A stretch of 23,603 bases of DNA. Source: a virus. Positions 1 to 23,603 of this stretch are shown here, piece after piece; position 1 is the stretch's first letter, and each line of letters starts with the position of its first letter. The notes under the pieces are model-generated. The model saw only the letters and a list, made by a program, of their open reading frames with translations, was not told where the DNA came from and did not search any database. Location: IMG/VR virus record IMGVR_UViG_3300025118_000155, positions 1-23,603 of that record; one strand, 5' to 3'. The translations under genes and the position numbers were made by a program.

Positions 1-3000
1 ATTCTTTAGAAGATATATCAAAATTAATATCTGAATGAGTAATTGTAGGCTTGATACCTCCAGACCTAAAGCCAATTATCTTACCACTATCATCGAATCT
101 CACCATATCGGGATGAGTTCCTATCATGCTCATCGCCATTAGATAAGCATTTTTAGATAAGAACATTTCTCCATCAACAACAGACTTTGTTGCATCGCCA
201 ATCAAGGCTATATTTTGATCATATGTTGGCTGATCTATTTCATTCTTATTAAATCTTTCATCTAAATCAATTTTAAGCCTTTCAAGTGAGTCGAATATAT
301 TAGCTATAGGATTATCATTTGCATCTACCAATTTAGATTCATCATCTATAGATAGTGTTTTTAATTTTCTATAATTACCATCTGCATCAGGAGATAGCCA
401 CCCATCCCTACTTAAAGTTTGATATATCTTCCTATGCAAATCTGAATCAGAGTTTTTGTAGAGATTTATAAATCTACCCATATTTTTATTAGTTGGTACA
501 AATCCATTTTTAGTTTCAACCAATGATGAACGCTTGAACATATCTTTAATAAATGCATGATCTAAATCTACACCATCAGTAGAAACTACTTTATCTATAG
601 CATGTGGTAGGTCTAGTAATAATCTGGTCAATTTAACCGCTTCAACTACATCCACATCTGTTTTAGCTTCTCTTATCTTTGTCAATAAATCTAGTACTCC
701 TCGTTTAGATTCTTGGGTCAAATCTCCATCCATAGCAGCCAATAGCATCTTATATAGCTCTCCATCTTTCCCAAATTGAGCTTGTATTTGCTGATGGATA
801 CCTCCCCTACCTCCATCTACACGAATAATTAAAGATGTCTTTTCATTCATAGGAACAACTCTATATCTAGCTTTAATTTCAGGGCCTCTTAAATCTCTAT
901 CTTTTAAGGTAGTAGGATCTCCATGCCTATAAAAGTCAGCCTTACCAGCCGGAGTGCTTAATTCCATATTCCCGGAATTTAATGCTCCATTTAAAGTCGT
1001 CAATTCCCATCCATTAATATCTCTTATAGTACTACCATCTTTATTTATTCCCGAAGTTTCAGCTAGATATATATTTTTTTGCCCTTTATCTAAGTAGTTT
1101 ATAAGACCCATTAGTCCACGAGAATGAATATCTCCTACAACCTTTTTACCTAAAATCAATGTATTGTTATTAAGATTTACTTTTAATGTCTTAACAGGGA
1201 CTTTAGAAAAATAAGAAGATGTAATTGAATATAAGTCTGCAGCCATAACATCAGAGCTTACCCTTCTATTCTCTGGTAATTTATCCATTTCAATCTTCAT
1301 TGCAAGCTTTAAAGGCTTGACTACAAAATTATTGAAATTAACATCAGTAAGCTCTACATCTCTAGTAGTAGATTTTAAAGTCCTAATAGCTGTATTAACT
1401 TCATCTCTTAATGCGGGATTTTTAACCTCACTAGGCATCTCCCAATGGTCACCGAATAAATGTTTGGCAAAAGCCTGTATATCTTTTGCACTTTTTGTAG
1501 TACTTCTATCCATGCTAAATACATCATCTATATATTTATGATTTATATTATATTTAACTTGAAACTGGGATGATGTTATTCGCATAGAATTATCTTGCAA
1601 ATCTCTATCTGGAATATCATCATTATATCTAGAAAGTTCTGTTTTAATCAGCTCTTTTATTGATTCATCTTTTATAATAGTTCTCTGAGCATCTAATTCT
1701 ATCTCTTTTTCAAGCTTAACTAACTCTGTTAAATATTTATTTCTATCAGAATCATATGGATTACGTGCTAACAAATCTAAAACTCTTTGTATATCACCTT
1801 CTTTCCTTGCAACACCATCTAATAAAGGCTTATTTCGTTCCATTAAACCTCTTTTAATCAGTTCAGCAAAATTACTAGTAACTTCCCTGCTAGCATTTAA
1901 AGCCTCTAATTGTGCCTTAATATCGATACGAATAGCGTCGTCCAAGATATCAACACCAGCACCTATATGCTCATGCAACATATTCTCTCTATCTGCTAAA
2001 TTTTCCAGTAAATCAGCCATTTGTCTAGATTTATCAGTAGAAAAAATATCTATTTTATCTTTACCTTCAACAAGAGATCTTGTTAAAGCCTTTATCCAAG
2101 CTCCTTCTTTATCTGGCTTGACAAGTCCCGGTTCAAATATAACAGGAAATCTTGCAGCTTCTATATTATCAACAATAAAATTATAGTGATCGAGTAATTC
2201 AGTATAAGCTTCTTTACTTATTTTGTCAGCATTTTTAGCAGTTAATAGCTCTCCCATAATCCTATCTCTGGTTGGCAGTATCATCCTAGGGCCATCAGTT
2301 TGCTGATTAAAGTCTACATTATTTCTAAGAGAAAGTATACTAGCTTTGACATCAACACCTGAAGGAATATCATTTAAACCTAATCTGTCCAAAGATTTGT
2401 TAAATATATAAGCTTTAAATTCTTTGAAAGAATCAGGATTAGACATTACATCTCCCATCATAGAATTAACTTTTTCCATTAAAGAGCTTGCTTCTTCTGC
2501 TTTTATAGCAGATCTACCAGTTTGAGTGATACTTGGATGTAAAGCTACTACCGTGCTATGTAAATTGTCTATAAAATAATTTAATTCACCATAGTCATAA
2601 GTTCCAGTTGCATCTTCTACAATTTCAGGTTTCCTCCTAAATCGTATAAGCTCATCTATAGAGTCTAATAAATCAGTAGCTTCTTGTTTTGTAGCATTAT
2701 GCTTAGAGCCCTCAGTAAATATCTCATATGCATTCCTTCTTTGCTCATGACGTAAATAGCTATCATATGTCATATGCCAAGCATCATTAGTAAGTATTAA
2801 TGGATCAATATCAATACGGCCTTTCCAATCATTACCATGAACATGATTCATCATTCTTTCATTCATATTATCATGAACATTTTTTAAGCCACCCTGAATT
2901 TCTCCATCAATAGCTATTTGATCTCTCCTAAGAATACTTCCAGGATCTATCCAGTTATTTTTAATGCCTCTATTATATATTGTATGAAAAATAGTTTTCA

Positions 3001-5230
3001 CTGTACTATCTCCAAAATCAATATTTTCAATACTAGGAGCTTTTATAACCCCAAATTCATTTATTTCAACGCCTTCAATACCTAAGGCCTTATAGATATT
3101 TACCATATAATCCTTAAGTAATTCTTGTGGTTCTTTAATAGCGTCACTAACAGATTTTTCAGCCCATGACTTTAATTGCTCAGGATATCTAGCTTTATCT
3201 AATATCTCTCCATCAAACCTAATATTACTTAACTTTGTTACTAAATCATAGGCTGTATCAGGGGATACATTAGATAGGTTGAATTGATTAGGAGAATTAT
3301 TATTATAAGTTTCAAGTATCTTTTCAGCTACTAATAATTGCTCATATAAAGGCCCAGTTTCCTCTGGCGTTAGTTCTCCATTTTTAATAAGTTCTTGTAT
3401 TTTCTTAGCAAATGATATCTTGAAATCAGCACCATTAACTTCAGCTTTTCCTTCAAGTGGAGACAGAACTTGCTTTACCTCATTTAACTCAGGAGATCTA
3501 TCAATTGCTCTTTTAATAGCTGTTTCTCCAGCATCTTCCATATGATCCTCTAAAGTTCTCCTATCATAAGCACTTACTACACCCATTAATTTGTCTCTAT
3601 CAACTCCAAATGTATTTAATCCTCCAAGCATTTTTCTTAACTTAGACGCCTTCCCTCCATAATATTCTCTAATCTTTCCTGTCTGAAAGGCTTTATTGAA
3701 AGTTGCGGAAGTTGTCTCAGTATGAAAACTATGAGGTTTTTTTGTAAAATACATTGCGGTAAATATATTAGCAGCTATTTCTGGAGCGGTTCCTCCCATG
3801 GCATTTTGAAATGATTCAGTACTAAAGCCATCTCTTGAAAATGCCATAGCTACCTGTGGAGCATGCATAGCGACAACGCCTGAAGCCATTCTTGGTAGCG
3901 AATAAAATACATCTTGGCTAAATTCTTTTGCCCAATGATATGGAGCTTTTGTTACATATTCACTTCTTATCTGCCCAAGATATTTTCTCATTAGTTTAGT
4001 ATCTGCATCAGTTTTAGCTCCTTTCCACCACTTAACACCTAGCTTTTCAAATTCCTTACCCCTTCCTATGCTCAAATATCCTCCAGCTATTTCATCCATA
4101 GCTGTCAATTGAGCTCTAAGTTCTACATTGGTATATTTATGTAAAGGCTTCCAATAGGCCTTAGAAGCTTTATGTATATAATTAGCTAATCTTTTACCAT
4201 GACCACCAACGCTACCACCTCTTACAAATTGAGCAAGACCCATTGGAGCAAACATTGCAGCATCTAAAGCTGCATTATACATCCAATTTTTTCCAACCCT
4301 ACCAAGATCAAAGGAATAATGATCATCAAGTCTTTTCATTTCTCCATATTCATCTGGAGCAACGTTCCACCATGAGCGTTGAAGTTCCTGTATCCCTGTA
4401 CGCATTGTACCCAATACACCACCAATAACAGCATCATATCCCATTGCACCAGCCACCAAGGTTGCTTTTGGATTCCCTTTAAATGGCCTAAGTGAGCCAA
4501 GCTTCATTGTTATTAATGAAAATGCATCATCAGGATTGTTTTTAGTTATAATATCAAATGTAGATTTTGCAACACCTTCTAATATCTCATCATCAGCTAT
4601 ATTTAAAACTTTACCAATATTCCCTTTTAGCCCATCTACCATGGCTCTTTCATATAGCTCTGAAGATAATGTTCCTTCTAACTGTCCAATAGCATTTGCA
4701 CCTTGAGATAGCTTATAGGCATCATCTACAATACTAGTAGCAACATCATCAGTAACGCTTTTAGCTAAATTAATAGTCGCCTTCTTTGTTGGCATTTTAG
4801 ATGCCTGTTCTACAAGTTCTTTAGCAGACTTCTTAACAGCCATTTTAACGCCCGCCCCAGTAGCTTTACCGGCACCTTTTATAAGTCCTTGAGTGAACAT
4901 CCCTCCCATCCAAAAGCTTGGTATTTGGCCTAATGCTGCTCCTGCTGCATAACCTCCTTTAGCCCAATCAGATAACTCTTCCCAAGAGCCTGCCTGACTG
5001 CCAAGTCCTCCAGCTATCATCTCTTCCCATGTATCAGCAGCATCCCCTTTATATGCTTTATTTACAGCATCAGCAACTCCTAAAGACCCAACAAGAGCTT
5101 GATCTGTAAAGCCCCATGCAAATTGGCCTACAGCATCCCAAACACTACCTTCATAATTAGAAACATTAGGATCAAGCCTTTGTCTTTCATCTTCTAGATA
5201 TTGTAAAAATCGTTCTCTTTCATTAGTCAT
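1..5230 (-). CDS. Giant virion/ejection-type protein, partial (C-terminus beyond left edge)
   Basis: An uninterrupted reading frame runs from an ATG at 5230 to the window edge: 1743 codons with no stop, and the left-edge codons are in frame with that ATG. The ATG overlaps the stop of the preceding gene as ATGA, with AGGA about 8 bases upstream. I recognise no enzyme: there is no HExxH zincin motif and no clear polymerase motif. Residues 1-90 are acidic and Trp/Gly-rich. Gly/Ala-rich hydrophobic patches lie near residues 92-128, 253-277, 320-340 and 445-500. Beyond about residue 550 it is mainly charged, helix-rich sequence. Very large proteins encoded last in a podovirus-like internal-protein block are commonly carried in the head and ejected with the DNA, for example N4 virion RNA polymerase, T7 gp16 and polyvalent proteins. 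That role is inferred from size, position and the hydrophobic N-terminal third. Catalytic domains may lie in the missing C-terminus. Confidence 0.85.
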   Translation of the reverse strand, partial: MTNERERFLQYLEDERQRLDPNVSNYEGSVWDAVGQFAWGFTDQALVGSLGVADAVNKAYKGDAADTWEEMIAGGLGSQAGSWEELSDWAKGGYAAGAALGQIPSFWMGGMFTQGLIKGAGKATGAGVKMAVKKSAKELVEQASKMPTKKATINLAKSVTDDVATSIVDDAYKLSQGANAIGQLEGTLSSELYERAMVDGLKGNIGKVLNIADDEILEGVAKSTFDIITKNNPDDAFSLITMKLGSLRPFKGNPKATLVAGAMGYDAVIGGVLGTMRTGIQELQRSWWNVAPDEYGEMKRLDDHYSFDLGRVGKNWMYNAALDAAMFAPMGLAQFVRGGSVGGHGKRLANYIHKASKAYWKPLHKYTNVELRAQLTAMDEIAGGYLSIGRGKEFEKLGVKWWKGAKTDADTKLMRKYLGQIRSEYVTKAPYHWAKEFSQDVFYSLPRMASGVVAMHAPQVAMAFSRDGFSTESFQNAMGGTAPEIAANIFTAMYFTKKPHSFHTETTSATFNKAFQTGKIREYYGGKASKLRKMLGGLNTFGVDRDKLMGVVSAYDRRTLEDHMEDAGETAIKRAIDRSPELNEVKQVLSPLEGKAEVNGADFKISFAKKIQELIKNGELTPEETGPLYEQLLVAEKILETYNNNSPNQFNLSNVSPDTAYDLVTKLSNIRFDGEILDKARYPEQLKSWAEKSVSDAIKEPQELLKDYMVNIYKALGIEGVEINEFGVIKAPSIENIDFGDSTVKTIFHTIYNRGIKNNWIDPGSILRRDQIAIDGEIQGGLKNVHDNMNERMMNHVHGNDWKGRIDIDPLILTNDAWHMTYDSYLRHEQRRNAYEIFTEGSKHNATKQEATDLLDSIDELIRFRRKPEIVEDATGTYDYGELNYFIDNLHSTVVALHPSITQTGRSAIKAEEASSLMEKVNSMMGDVMSNPDSFKEFKAYIFNKSLDRLGLNDIPSGVDVKASILSLRNNVDFNQQTDGPRMILPTRDRIMGELLTAKNADKISKEAYTELLDHYNFIVDNIEAARFPVIFEPGLVKPDKEGAWIKALTRSLVEGKDKIDIFSTDKSRQMADLLENLADRENMLHEHIGAGVDILDDAIRIDIKAQLEALNASREVTSNFAELIKRGLMERNKPLLDGVARKEGDIQRVLDLLARNPYDSDRNKYLTELVKLEKEIELDAQRTIIKDESIKELIKTELSRYNDDIPDRDLQDNSMRITSSQFQVKYNINHKYIDDVFSMDRSTTKSAKDIQAFAKHLFGDHWEMPSEVKNPALRDEVNTAIRTLKSTTRDVELTDVNFNNFVVKPLKLAMKIEMDKLPENRRVSSDVMAADLYSITSSYFSKVPVKTLKVNLNNNTLILGKKVVGDIHSRGLMGLINYLDKGQKNIYLAETSGINKDGSTIRDINGWELTTLNGALNSGNMELSTPAGKADFYRHGDPTTLKDRDLRGPEIKARYRVVPMNEKTSLIIRVDGGRGGIHQQIQAQFGKDGELYKMLLAAMDGDLTQESKRGVLDLLTKIREAKTDVDVVEAVKLTRLLLDLPHAIDKVVSTDGVDLDHAFIKDMFKRSSLVETKNGFVPTNKNMGRFINLYKNSDSDLHRKIYQTLSRDGWLSPDADGNYRKLKTLSIDDESKLVDANDNPIANIFDSLERLKIDLDERFNKNEIDQPTYDQNIALIGDATKSVVDGEMFLSKNAYLMAMSMIGTHPDMVRFDDSGKIIGFRSGGIKPTITHSDINFDISSKE

Positions 5231-9077: not shown

Positions 9078-9266
9078 TTATCCTCTATCTAATACTTTCT
9101 TATGCAATACTCCATTATGCCTTATATATTCTACCACACCTTCTGACGTAGATCTAAGTACAGGTACACCTTCCTTTAAATCAGAAACAGCAGGAGCACC
9201 CTCCTTGACCTGTAATCTCTCCTGCTTCTTATGTAAAGCTATTCTTTCTTGTCTTGTCATTCCCAT
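9078..9266 (-). CDS. Small conserved-type phage protein, 62 aa
   Basis: A 62-aa basic protein with a helical, charged N-terminus (TRQERIALHKKQERLQ) and a C-terminal beta-like part (VLRSTSEGVVEYIRHNGVLH). The phrase 'GxPVLRSTxEGxxEYIRxNGVLxKK' is a pattern I associate with short proteins beside marine phage virion genes; the usual interpretation is a small virion component, but no function is established to my knowledge. The first ATG overlaps the 830-aa gene's stop as TAATG, and a second in-frame ATG two codons later is also possible. AAAGGG lies about 9 bases upstream of the first ATG. Confidence 0.85.
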   Translation of the reverse strand: MGMTRQERIALHKKQERLQVKEGAPAVSDLKEGVPVLRSTSEGVVEYIRHNGVLHKKVLDRG

Positions 9267-11758
9267 TATCTTTGCCCTTTCAATCTAAAAACTATTGTAG
9301 CATCATTAATTTCAAAAGCAGTCTTACCTGTGCCACTAAATCTTAATTGAAAACTATAGCACTCTACTGGAGAAGATAATGTTAAGGTAGCTTCATTCTG
9401 TCCTGATGAAGCAATTAAGGGCTCACCAGAAGCAAATCCATTCCAACCATTATCTCCATTTATCTGGTAATCAACATCAACACTAAGACTTGATACTCCA
9501 GTATATGTAACATATACTTTGTATATCTTTTTCTTTTGTGCTGGTTGTCCAAAGTCTATATCTTTAGTCTGTATTACGAAATCTGTTGAATCTTCACCTG
9601 CATCATCCCACTTAACTAGAGTACCAGCCGTATGAGCATATACTAAATCACCATTCCAATCTGTAATAAAGTTTGTTTTAGCTTGATCAGGATCAGTAAT
9701 AGTAGCAGCAGCCCCTTTAACCCAAGATTGCGTTACTATATCATATAAATAGGCAGCACCATCTCCGGTTGTAGTGATATCATCTGCAACAATTATCTGT
9801 CTTTTTTTCGGAAGATATCCAATCATAGGTTCATCTACAAAATCACTCCACACACTCTCTTTTATTATTTGTCTACCTTGTTTCTCAAGTAAGTTATTTA
9901 CTTTCTGTCCATCATATAGATAGCATCCCTTTTCATTCACCCATGCTATACCAAAGTCAGTCTTGCAAGTAGCAGCTGGATGAGATACTCCCTTATGCAT
10001 AAATGTATCTTCTAGAAACTCCACCTCTTGAGATATGTTTACTAGTTCTAATTTATTCTTTTTGAATATTAAAAGTCTATCTGCATAAGCTTCAAGCTTT
10101 ACTATTGAATCTCCATCATTAACAGAAGCTTCAAGCTTTCTAGAAGCTGGAAAGCTATCAAACTTATTAACTTCAGATTTTAACACTCTATCTCCATAGA
10201 CTATACCATCCTGCTTTACATGGCCTATATAAGCCATCCTATTCGCAACTACAGCAGTTTTATACCCTTCTACAGTATGGGTCTCACCAACTTCATATGG
10301 ATACTTTGTTAAAGATGGGAAGGGGAAATCATCGCCAACACTTTTATCACCAAAATATGCCATAGTAGTATCAACAAAAGATCCAAGCCACTGTATAAAG
10401 CTATCCTGATGCTCTGCGATTCTTATACCATCCGCTATACTAACTTCACATAATAAAGCATAATCGCTAGTAGAATTAGAACTACTAGATCTTCTGACAT
10501 ATATTTTAAAGCCTGTAACTCTTGGATATGTAGATCCAAAAGTATTAGCAGCAGAACAAAATACGTGAACATCTATAAGTGGAGAATTTAGATCTAAATA
10601 ATGATTATCACTAGTATCCCCAAGCATTATATCTGCAAGTGCTATTCTTGTGCCAAATTCAGCTAGGGCTGATTCCTGATTTCCATCATATATAGTTGAC
10701 ATAGCAAACTGTAAGTATCTTTCATTTGTATCATCACTCCACCAATGCATACGAGATAAATTTGCAATGTGGACAATAGTACTTGTATCATCTGTAGCAA
10801 TACCTCCAGGAACTGTAATTACAGAAGCGGTTACAGCAGTTACAGCAGCTATAACATTAGCATTGCCAGCTTTATCTGTATCGCCCATTATTAAAAAGTC
10901 TCCAGGCTTACAAAATAAAGTAAAATTATCCTCTGTGGAGTCTACCATTGTTATCGTATCAGAAACCGCATTCACATTACAAGTAGCACGAATAACTTGA
11001 GTCGTTGAACTAATACTCTGTGTAGTACCTGCAATATTAATAAAATATGGATAAACAGCACCAGCAGCTTTAATTGATAACCTGACAGGCTTATTAATAT
11101 CAGGTGCAGCTCCGGCAGCATCACGAGTAGTTATAGATTTCATAGGAAGTGCTGTCAGATTCTGATCTTGTGATATCCATTGATCATATAATTTACCACC
11201 AGTTAAGCCAGTAAAAGCATCAACTCCATTAGTACCATCGCCAAATTGCATTCTATAAATATATCCATACCACTTATTAGCATTATTAGCACCAAAGTTT
11301 CCATCACTTACTCTTAATGCACCATCTACAGCATAGAAAGTTGGTTTTACTCCTGTTGTTCCAGTTCCGTCAGTATATAAATCTATAACAGCAGTTGGAG
11401 AGCCACCCCATGCAGTTTCACCAGCACTGCTTTCATAAATAAAAAACTGAGTATCAGTATCAGTATCAGCTAATACTAAATAATCAGCTCCAGTTTCAGC
11501 TACATCAGCAGCACCAGCATCATTCCCTTCTAATCTATCATGGCTAAAATAAAATAATCCATAACCAGGATTAATAACAGCAGTAACAGAAGCACCAGCA
11601 GCATGCGCTACAACACCACCCATCATTCTAATCTTACCCAACTCATCCACCATGACATCAGTAGCTTCAGATAGCTCATTCTCAGCTATATCCCTAGCAT
11701 CTGAATTATTATTCAAACCTCCATGAAACTGAGTAATCTTGTATAATTGTTTAGGCAT
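9266..11758 (-). CDS. Large virion protein, probable tail nozzle/hub or DNA-stabilisation (propeller-like), 830 aa
   Basis: An 830-aa Gly/Asp/Thr-rich, predicted beta-rich protein. Residues about 12-48 carry the motif GGLNNNSDARDIAENELSEA followed by a 'DVMVDELGKIRMMGG' segment, a start typical of phage proteins that line up repeated blades ('we expect N columns/variables with this offset'). Residues about 555-640 contain blade-like repeats: DRLLIFKKNKLELVN, then IAWVNEKGCYLYDGQK, then a third motif with VADD/YLYDIVTQSWV. This recalls the propeller of P22 gp10-type DNA-stabilisation proteins and T7 gp12-type nozzles. The C-terminal 150 residues look like a beta-sandwich ending in FRLKGQR. A good AAAGGA site precedes the ATG. 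It follows the structured intergenic element at 11775-11863 and is the first gene of the internal-protein block. The assignment rests on motif resemblance and position; a generic structural protein remains possible. Confidence 0.85.
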   Translation of the reverse strand: MPKQLYKITQFHGGLNNNSDARDIAENELSEATDVMVDELGKIRMMGGVVAHAAGASVTAVINPGYGLFYFSHDRLEGNDAGAADVAETGADYLVLADTDTDTQFFIYESSAGETAWGGSPTAVIDLYTDGTGTTGVKPTFYAVDGALRVSDGNFGANNANKWYGYIYRMQFGDGTNGVDAFTGLTGGKLYDQWISQDQNLTALPMKSITTRDAAGAAPDINKPVRLSIKAAGAVYPYFINIAGTTQSISSTTQVIRATCNVNAVSDTITMVDSTEDNFTLFCKPGDFLIMGDTDKAGNANVIAAVTAVTASVITVPGGIATDDTSTIVHIANLSRMHWWSDDTNERYLQFAMSTIYDGNQESALAEFGTRIALADIMLGDTSDNHYLDLNSPLIDVHVFCSAANTFGSTYPRVTGFKIYVRRSSSSNSTSDYALLCEVSIADGIRIAEHQDSFIQWLGSFVDTTMAYFGDKSVGDDFPFPSLTKYPYEVGETHTVEGYKTAVVANRMAYIGHVKQDGIVYGDRVLKSEVNKFDSFPASRKLEASVNDGDSIVKLEAYADRLLIFKKNKLELVNISQEVEFLEDTFMHKGVSHPAATCKTDFGIAWVNEKGCYLYDGQKVNNLLEKQGRQIIKESVWSDFVDEPMIGYLPKKRQIIVADDITTTGDGAAYLYDIVTQSWVKGAAATITDPDQAKTNFITDWNGDLVYAHTAGTLVKWDDAGEDSTDFVIQTKDIDFGQPAQKKKIYKVYVTYTGVSSLSVDVDYQINGDNGWNGFASGEPLIASSGQNEATLTLSSPVECYSFQLRFSGTGKTAFEINDATIVFRLKGQR
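11451..11468. repeat. Hexanucleotide repeat (GTATCA x3) in the 830-aa gene
   Basis: Three consecutive copies of GTATCA on the plus strand, encoding a short Asp-Thr repeat near residue 100 of the 830-aa protein. Length changes by one unit would keep the frame. Confidence 0.9.
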
Positions 11759-11774
11759 TATCTTCCTTTAAATC

Positions 11775-11863
11775 ATTGGGAGAGATGTACACAACAGTAA
11801 GCGAACCGTCTGAACATACGAGCCGAGAGAACCAAGGAGGAGCAGTGTAGTCCCTCTCCCAAT
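11775..11863 (-). ncRNA. Structured RNA candidate in intergenic gap (89 nt, inverted-repeat closed)
   Basis: The arms 11775-11784 and 11854-11863 are perfect 10-base inverted repeats (ATTGGGAGAG / CTCTCCCAAT) enclosing 69 bases. A second inner helix of 5 bp pairs 11788-11792 with 11845-11849, separated from the outer stem by a 3x4 internal loop. I count 45 G or C in 89 bases, about 50%, in an otherwise strongly AT-rich genome. No ORF fits. It lies between the 64-aa gene's stop and the ribosome site of the 830-aa gene, in the direction of transcription. It is not a tRNA: there is no TTCRA T-loop adjacent to the 3' arm and no CCA. Possible roles are a leader controlling the 830-aa gene, a processing or attenuation site, or a small phage RNA. 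A DNA-level role (packaging or integration site) cannot be excluded. Confidence 0.5.
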
Positions 11864-11871
11864 CGTAATTG

Positions 11872-12066
11872 TTAACCTTTATTGATTGCATCTTTAAGAA
11901 CCTCCTCTACTGACGAGTATATAGCATCTATGATTCTACCTTCTGCCTTTTCTCCAATAAAAGGTATATCAATATTTTTATTCAATGCTCTAACTATATT
12001 TCCTTTCATCTGATCATTAAATAGATATTCAATAACAGCCTGCTTTATAGCTTGTTCTATACTCAT
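11872..12066 (-). CDS. Small helical protein, 64 aa
   Basis: A 64-aa protein starting MSIEQAIKQAVIEYL. It is mostly amphipathic helix, with conserved-looking 'IPFIGEKAEGRIIDAI' in the middle and an acidic C-terminal helix ending in NKG. I chose the ATG at 12066 rather than an in-frame ATG at 12093: the inner start overlaps the previous stop as TAATG and has a strong AAAGGAG 5 bases upstream, whereas the longer version lies inside the 77-aa gene. Function unknown. It is the last gene of the small-protein cluster next to the membrane proteins, so a lysis or virion accessory role is possible but unsupported. Confidence 0.75.
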   Translation of the reverse strand: MSIEQAIKQAVIEYLFNDQMKGNIVRALNKNIDIPFIGEKAEGRIIDAIYSSVEEVLKDAINKG

Positions 12067-22182: not shown

Positions 22183-23421
22183 TTATCTTGCCTGATTAGG
22201 AGCTGCTGCTTGCTTAGGCATTGCTATTCCAAAAGCTCCATCATAGTCTTGCTTTAAGGCAATATATTGACCTTGCAACCATTGATATTCAGTAGTTGCT
22301 TCCTGTATATTAGCTTGATATTCCTGAATCTGACTAGCCACATCTGCTTGATATGCAGCTATCTCATTTTGATATCTTTGCAACTTCTTTGCATATTCAT
22401 CTATTTGTTTTTGCTGCTCAAAATCTGCATCCTTCTGAGCCTTAGCTGCTGCAACTTGAAGTTCTTGTAAAGCTTCTTGTACAGTAGACTGGTATTCTAC
22501 ATTTGCATCATTAAAAATATTTAATTGATTTTGCATTGCTTGCCCATAAGCATTAAGATATGTATTGATTTTAGATATTTGAGCTGATGCCAATTCAGAA
22601 TCTTCTTGATCTTCTATATATTGACCAGCAATATTAAACCATTGTTCTGTGTCTGTTTCTGCACTACCAATTGTACCTGCTTCCATCTCTGTTATTTGAT
22701 CTGAAGAAGACTCTAAACTTGGAGCAGTATATGTAGGAGCAGTTCCTAAACTTCCAGCTGTTTGGGCAGAAACTGTTACAGCAGAATAGCTAGGAACAGA
22801 AGGCGTGTCCGGGGGAACAGCTGTAACTGATAATGTAGAAATTGACTTTGATCCCATAACAGCTTGTAACGTTCTCATTGCCGCATAAATCACTACCAAA
22901 TAAACTTTATCTTTTGGAAAATAACCTATAGTAGAATGTCCAGCAGCCAATGCGTCTACTATACCATCTCCCTTAGGCTCGTTATTAACATAATAGACTC
23001 TATATCCATCATTAGTTCCATCTGGAACAGGATAAACATTTACAGCACTATTATTATTAATTATATATACAGGATTATATTTTGATGCATAAAATAAACT
23101 ATCTACATCAACAACTCTTGATCGCATTGATGATGGAACTTTTTTACAAGGTTCCCATGCAGTACTACCATCTGTATCCCCATCAGAACCTGCTTCTCTA
23201 ATGACAGAAACTATATTGGCACCAGAAGTAGCAAATCCATTAGAGGATTGAGTTGAACTTCCTCTAACGAAATCTTCTATATCTTGAGGCCTAATAGCAA
23301 GCCATCTATTAGTAACATCCATAACACCATCTTTTAGAAATTCTGCTAACTCAGCTGTAGAAGGAGTAGTTCCTACAGATAGTGATGTTAATCCCTCTAC
23401 TTGTACTTGAAATGTTGCCAT
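22183..23421 (-). CDS. Probable head-to-tail adaptor/structural protein with C-terminal coiled coil, 412 aa
   Basis: A 412-aa protein in two parts. Residues 1-220 are mixed and include TTPSTAELAEFLKDGVMDVT, RWLAIRPQDIEDF and VYIINNNSAVNVYPVPDG, then VYLVVIYAAMRTLQAVM; this segment resembles the adaptor or neck-type proteins I recall in uncultured marine phages ('QxEGLTSLS...TELxxFLxDGVxDVTNRWL'). Residues about 275-395 are a long Ala/Gln-rich coiled coil (for example QEALQELQVAAAKAQ and IDEYAKKLQRYQNEIAAY). GAGGG lies 5 bases before the ATG, and the 83-base leader carries a stem-loop. A connector role is inferred; a coiled-coil-bearing fibre base is an alternative. Confidence 0.83.
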   Translation of the reverse strand: MATFQVQVEGLTSLSVGTTPSTAELAEFLKDGVMDVTNRWLAIRPQDIEDFVRGSSTQSSNGFATSGANIVSVIREAGSDGDTDGSTAWEPCKKVPSSMRSRVVDVDSLFYASKYNPVYIINNNSAVNVYPVPDGTNDGYRVYYVNNEPKGDGIVDALAAGHSTIGYFPKDKVYLVVIYAAMRTLQAVMGSKSISTLSVTAVPPDTPSVPSYSAVTVSAQTAGSLGTAPTYTAPSLESSSDQITEMEAGTIGSAETDTEQWFNIAGQYIEDQEDSELASAQISKINTYLNAYGQAMQNQLNIFNDANVEYQSTVQEALQELQVAAAKAQKDADFEQQKQIDEYAKKLQRYQNEIAAYQADVASQIQEYQANIQEATTEYQWLQGQYIALKQDYDGAFGIAMPKQAAAPNQAR

Positions 23422-23442
23422 AAATTCCCTCTAAGGTACCCA

Positions 23443-23480
23443 CCCCCTCTAGAAGAGACCCCATATCTCAGCAGAGGGGG
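23443..23480 (-). promoter_or_regulatory. GC-rich stem-loop in the leader of the 412-aa gene
   Basis: CCCCCTCT (23443-23450) and AGAGGGGG (23473-23480) form a perfect 8-bp stem, with an inner 4-bp GAGA/TCTC helix (23455-23458 with 23466-23469). In the transcript the first arm could instead pair with AGAGGG at 23427-23432, the ribosome site of the 412-aa gene, giving mutually exclusive folds. No U-run follows on the transcribed strand, so it is not an obvious terminator. This is a regulatory leader candidate. Confidence 0.5.
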
Positions 23481-23494
23481 CAGGTATATTTTAG

Positions 23495-23512
23495 TTAGTT
23501 ATTCTTAACTAA
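23495..23512 (-). other. AT-rich hairpin at the end of the upstream gene
   Basis: TTAGTTA and TAACTAA form a 7-bp stem with a 4-base loop that overlaps the stop codon at 23505-23507. It has no following U-tract and is AT-only, so it may just be chance in an AT-rich region. Confidence 0.3.
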
Positions 23513-23603
23513 ATGGAGTAGCTGCTGAGCCACTTCCATTAGCTACTGATTTTACAAACCAATAACCATCTTTATTTGCCTGAATAAATACTTCACTACC
23601 AAT
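23505..23603 (-). CDS. C-terminal 32 residues of a virion-region gene, partial
   Basis: The frame opens at the window edge and ends in TAA at 23505. The visible residues are IGSEVFIQANKDGYWFVKSV, then ANGSGSAATPFS. The strand-like FIQANKDGYWFVKSV phrase and Gly/Ser tail are compatible with a small beta virion domain, such as a decoration or head protein. Too little is present to assign a family. The gene precedes the adaptor, so a capsid-region gene is plausible. Confidence 0.7.
   Translation of the reverse strand: MGSEVFIQANKDGYWFVKSVANGSGSAATPFS

Follow-up and report, generated by a model that had tools for sequence, protein, structure and literature searches.

A conserved RNA element embedded in a small gene at the start of an 830-amino-acid protein gene in marine phages

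Results

An open reading frame covers a supposed intergenic gap

The window analyzed here is a stretch of 23,603 nucleotides of viral DNA that comprises positions 1 to 23,603 of IMG/VR record IMGVR_UViG_3300025118_000155. The minus strand carries every annotated-size gene of the window, among them a gene for an 830-amino-acid protein. The initial annotation had placed a possible structured RNA in an intergenic gap just upstream of this gene. When a lower limit on ORF length was applied, a 46-amino-acid ORF that covers the stretch appeared on the minus strand. It shares 20 nt with the end of the preceding ORF and 8 nt with the beginning of the 830-amino-acid gene. Thus, there is no gap, and an intergenic non-coding RNA was discarded as an interpretation because the ORF that covers the stretch is conserved. 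The features of the locus are as follows.

9266–11758, minus strand: 830-amino-acid gene, no family match; N-terminus MPKQxYKI..FHGGLN..SDxRDI conserved beside the element
11751–11891, minus strand: 46-amino-acid ORF, MQSIKVNNYDWERDYTAPPWFSRLVCSDGSLTVVYISPNDLKEDNA; ATG at 11891–11889, stop TAA at 11753–11751
11762–11769, minus strand: Shine-Dalgarno-like AAAGGAAG of the 830-amino-acid gene, ~6–8 nt 3′ of P1
11776–11862, minus strand: whole structured RNA element in mRNA sense, helices P1-P2-P3, wholly inside the 46-amino-acid ORF
11853–11863, minus strand: P1 5′ arm AUUGGGAGAGG, which encodes D/N-W-E-R; GGGAGAGG does not vary among the 22 sequences
11775–11785, minus strand: P1 3′ arm UCUCUCCCAAU, third base of a variable codon and then the S-P codons UCU CCC; CUCUCCC invariant in 22 of 22
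11845–11849, minus strand: P2 5′ arm UACAC; compensated C-G to U-A at two positions
11788–11792, minus strand: P2 3′ arm GUGUA
11833–11842, minus strand: CUCCUCCUUG, without variation in all 22 sequences; it lies in the large 5′ bulge that separates P2 from P3
11805–11810, minus strand: P3 5′ arm GACGGU; compensated pairs occur in L078 and L097, and L064 has a perfect helix of 8 bp
11793–11798, minus strand: P3 3′ arm ACUGUU, directly adjoining the P2 3′ arm
11872–12066, minus strand: preceding small ORF (64 amino acids from the ATG at 12066); other lineages have unrelated small genes in its place

Searches of IMG/VR for relatives, which used both the 830-amino-acid protein and the small protein as well as the N-terminal part of the downstream protein and DNA patterns, yielded 22 distinct sequences. 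Both stem arms were not required for the recovery of 21 of these, and the remaining one (L097) came from a stem pattern only. The small ORF was present in all 22 relatives with the same start and stop architecture. Its product is 45–47 amino acids in every lineage, length differences are multiples of three, and the start codon is located 9–11 codons before the WER motif (10 or 11 codons in 21 sequences; a TTG at 9 codons in L003). At least three unrelated genes precede the ORF across the relatives, and the DNA upstream is unrelated (mean difference 0.51). Since length, start position and the start/stop overlap are kept despite unrelated upstream genes, the ORF very probably is coding and a small protein would be produced from it. 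It is most improbable that the RNA alone matters, as a leader or non-coding element in which the frame is open by chance. The many amino-acid changes among relatives and a pN/pS of only 0.52 in frame (0.84 and 0.68 in the other two frames) would suit this reading, but the start codon holds its in-frame distance in unrelated contexts, the ORF is open throughout, the two alternative frames are closed in 22 and 20 of the 22 relatives, and lengths change in threes. The small protein matched no family in Pfam or PHROG searches. Its predicted structure is a three-strand sheet modeled with low confidence (pLDDT 66), and a fold search with this model returned nothing better than E 1.

A three-helix RNA fold is conserved within the small ORF

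The plus-strand arms ATTGGGAGAG (11775–11784) and CTCTCCCAAT (11854–11863) are exact reverse complements, which bears out the perfect 10-bp outer stem proposed initially. The 5-bp inner helix (TACAC/GTGTA in mRNA sense) and the G+C content of about 50% (45 of 89 bases compared to 36% for the window) also were as described. Perfect 10-bp arms with at least five G/C number two in the window versus 0.2 expected. In the consensus fold in mRNA sense, P1 is formed by GGGAGAG/CUCUCCC with seven invariant pairs and extends to up to 11 pairs, P2 has five pairs, and P3, a helix absent from the earlier description, has six. These ~21 bp are interrupted by a 34-nt bulge in which CUCCUCCUUG supplies codons for A/T-P-P-W/C and includes CCUCCUU, the anti-Shine-Dalgarno heptamer. 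Folding of the window sequence alone provided weak evidence, with z of approximately −2 for the 89-mer and −0.5 to −0.8 when flanks were included, and the 89-mer fold is no outlier within the window after allowing for G+C. Every member's fold closes P1 and most or all of P2. An alternative inner helix, UCGGC/GCUGA, that occurs in several MFE folds was rejected as it is lost in CTT-codon sequences. ARAGORN detected no tRNA or tmRNA, in keeping with the original remark that the layout is not that of a tRNA, and no Rfam covariance model matched the element at the gathering threshold or at E ≤ 5.

Comparison of the relatives showed that the fold just upstream of the 830-amino-acid gene is kept in all 22. 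Over these sequences 97.0% of cells pair, compared to 40–58% in slid registers. Compensated changes are few: both sides changed in four pairs, each in one or two sequences, namely alignment columns 27–84 (L003 and L036), 29–82 (L120), 64–81 (L097) and 65–80 (L078). Under a null model that holds constant the tree and how many changes each column has, the observed pairing was reached in 6 of 2000 runs, the double changes in 66, and both together in one. Thus, pairs are maintained with compensatory changes beyond phylogeny, and the covariation that was anticipated if related phages retain the flanking gene was found for P2 and P3. The P1 core never varies, and covariation therefore is silent on this helix.

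Invariance of the P1 core occurred although synonymous codons were free. Codon choice is fixed at GAG AGG, at UCU CCC and at the final C of codon 26, which switches between I, T and S yet always ends in C; CCC and C-ending codons are rare in this phage genome. In L003 and L036 a Y to C replacement accompanied by a silent V change leaves the base pairs intact. Synonymous divergence (pS) was 0.24 in the element core versus 0.50 in the opening codons of the adjacent gene in the same 20 sequences, and the core had the lower value in 182 of 190 pairs. Fourfold sites showed 4 changes in 8 core columns compared to 12 in 4 columns next door. The MFE was below that of synonymous recodings with genome codon usage in all 20 sequences tested (z −2.3 to −4.7); against codon permutations, which are less decisive, it was unremarkable within several single sequences. 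Overall, comparison of the sequences indicates that the RNA element is under selection separate from that for small-protein coding and that the same stretch of DNA is kept both for the encoded protein and for RNA shape.

It is very unlikely that the protein alone matters, with nucleotide conservation reflecting recent spread of a cassette and the inverted repeat being incidental. High DNA identity across otherwise diverged phages and the sharp climb in conservation at the P1 5′ arm, where the conserved island begins, fit such a spread. However, amino acids change where pairs are kept, synonymous sites in the same few codons evolve at different rates, double changes preserve pairs, and a recombination island would need to start exactly at the stem in all lineages.

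The pairs fit the mRNA sense (407 of 420 cells) better than the antisense (348 of 420), a difference that arises from G-U pairs and that disfavors a plus-strand RNA or a DNA palindrome. This bias and the fixed place of the element in the coding and start-codon architecture favor a cis element of the mRNA. The earlier suggestions of a free small RNA or a packaging site gained no support.

The element adjoins a stop/start overlap

The small ORF and the 830-amino-acid gene lie on the same strand and are joined by the stop/start overlap ATGCCTAA, GTGCCTAA or ATGCCTAG in all 22 relatives, which is the layout of a coupled pair. Among closely spaced genes three overlap motifs are enriched, of which the −8 nt spacing seen here is one (PMC12548453). 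The Shine-Dalgarno sequence of the 830-amino-acid gene is weak or missing in L120 and L018, which still keep the overlap and the hairpin as expected if reinitiation matters. The downstream Shine-Dalgarno sequence is unpaired in most MFE folds, and thus the folds disagree with the simplest unfolding model, in which this site is buried. Sequestration of the site by the CCUCCUU-like bulge was rejected because L120 and L018 keep the bulge without a good Shine-Dalgarno sequence. A pseudoknot between the two probably can be set aside as well, since a linker of 6–8 nt would have to cross ~17 bp. A T7-like promoter with a GGGAGA start also was considered and seems improbable: the bases before GGGAGA are not conserved, and no PF00940 single-subunit RNA polymerase was found in nine related records in a search run without a positive control.

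The phage group and the slot upstream of the 830-amino-acid gene

In each of 18 related records a covariance model of the element (R1) found a single strong copy, in every case in the slot before the 830-amino-acid gene. The same genomes contain no good further copies, and a 23.5-bit match in G001 is a different hairpin. In relatives that lack the element the slot is occupied by other small ORFs, which often show the same overlap. Five of these relatives (L008, L026, L133, L135 and L143) have very short W-rich ORFs such as MIDYEWVSTPSWYWIEVVYA with the ATGCCTAA overlap and no hairpin; these ORFs may encode shortened or remotely related forms of the WER protein. In another clade (L012, L025, L028, L034, L035 and L038) the slot gene is 77–100 amino acids and ends in ...CDLPEHAQ...IEYEEGNA. 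The slot swaps small genes, and the downstream start is conserved.

The related phage G001 encodes a P22-like portal, an SU10-like capsid protein, a terminase and a DnaB-type helicase. Three large genes of the virion region of the window (2–5230, 9266–11758 and 22183–23421) gave no tblastn match in 50,697 isolated-phage records, and the DNA around the element had no match in isolated phages. With three such genes lacking an isolate match, this marine phage group seems to be without sequenced isolates.

Two other hairpins were observed in these phages. A very stable hairpin at 23436–23535 (minus strand), the strongest local fold in the window, is positioned after a capsid-region gene and just before the Shine-Dalgarno sequence of a 412-amino-acid gene. 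It has counterparts at G001:41041–41108 and G011:21416–21484 and in L182 and L184; the outer stem changes on both sides in relatives, the inner GAGAU-GUGGGG-UCUC is kept, and there was no Rfam match. The second, outside the window, is an early-region hairpin of related phages (alignment A5; L200:11202–11300, L199, L201, L202, L204, L206 and L207) composed of UAUAAGGGGGUACGC...CUUGAU...GUGUAUYCACAC...AGCUGCCCCCUUA and situated before or at a gene start. Its inner blocks are invariant, one pair is compensated, and the four copies tested had no Rfam match.

Discussion

The locus described here comprises an RNA element, without a match in the libraries searched, that appears to be embedded in a small coupled gene. 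The reading we favor, tentatively and at somewhat short of an even chance, is that a cis-acting mRNA element in the small upstream gene tunes translation of the 830-amino-acid gene by termination-reinitiation or by low independent entry. A ribosome translating the small gene would cross and open the hairpin and then terminate at the TAA that overlaps the AUG of the 830-amino-acid gene (AUGCCUAA, −8 spacing). The hairpin could re-form directly behind the terminating ribosome. In this manner the element would set in cis the frequency with which the 830-amino-acid gene is translated, either through termination-reinitiation or by keeping independent entry low. Both the coupling and the effect of the hairpin upon it are inferred. 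Phage genes commonly overlap at start and stop codons with no conserved hairpin, and the relatives that have a different slot ORF use the ATGCCTAA overlap in its absence; thus, coupling itself does not need the hairpin.

Translational coupling by termination-reinitiation or by RNA unfolding has been reviewed (PMC12548453). The phage locus resembles the coupled systems in its co-directional ORFs, overlapping stop and start (−8, ATGCCTAA) and RNA structure at the junction, but differs in that the hairpin precedes rather than covers the Shine-Dalgarno sequence and is kept at the level of base pairs across diverged phages. Bacterial leader-peptide attenuators and arrest peptides likewise consist of a short ORF with overlapping RNA structure upstream of a controlled gene. 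Unlike these, the phage element shows no alternative terminator or anti-terminator, and its product of near-constant length in all lineages resembles an ordinary small protein.

The TURBS of caliciviruses are RNA in an upstream ORF that holds the terminating ribosome for reinitiation. They share with the phage element a structured RNA that is within the upstream ORF and precedes an overlapping stop and start by tens of nt, but TURBS use the eukaryotic ribosome and pairing with rRNA, so that the likeness is one of analogy and not of homology. A prokaryotic counterpart, in which the fold in the upstream ORF re-forms and holds or positions the ribosome for restart with CUCCUCCUUG as the contact, would be a long shot.

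T7-type phages possess intercistronic hairpins that are processed by RNase III, and the phage element similarly is an irregular stem just upstream of the ribosome site of a late structural gene, but lies wholly inside a conserved ORF. The hairpin might therefore be an element of mRNA processing or stability, either an RNase III-like site or a protector of a 5′ or 3′ end, that is inside the small gene by chance. The closing helix stops a few nt short of the Shine-Dalgarno sequence, and the two additional conserved hairpins of these phages (23436–23535 and A5) directly precede gene starts, both of which accord with this role. However, an RNase III processing site is a long near-continuous duplex, whereas P1, P2 and P3 are broken by the 34-nt bulge with its invariant bases. 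The processing role also leaves the invariant CUCCUCCUUG unexplained and is considered unlikely. These bases, in the large bulge of a structured context, might instead belong to a candidate operator that is bound by a protein, such as the small protein or the 830-amino-acid structural protein, in translational feedback. That each genome has just one copy, and this at the very start of a structural gene, is in agreement with an operator, but the neighbors that were tested matched no RNA-binding family and the low-confidence model of the small protein had no fold match, which leaves this role distinctly improbable.

Control of the 830-amino-acid gene in cis by the hairpin would provide a natural system in which to understand how bacterial reinitiation is set by RNA structure that precedes a stop/start overlap. 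The locus is a compact case in which one stretch of phage DNA is selected as both a small protein and an RNA fold, and in which relatives suffice to separate the two constraints. More generally, what looks like an intergenic gap in a gapless phage genome can conceal a very short gene that is missed by ORF callers with a 50-amino-acid floor.
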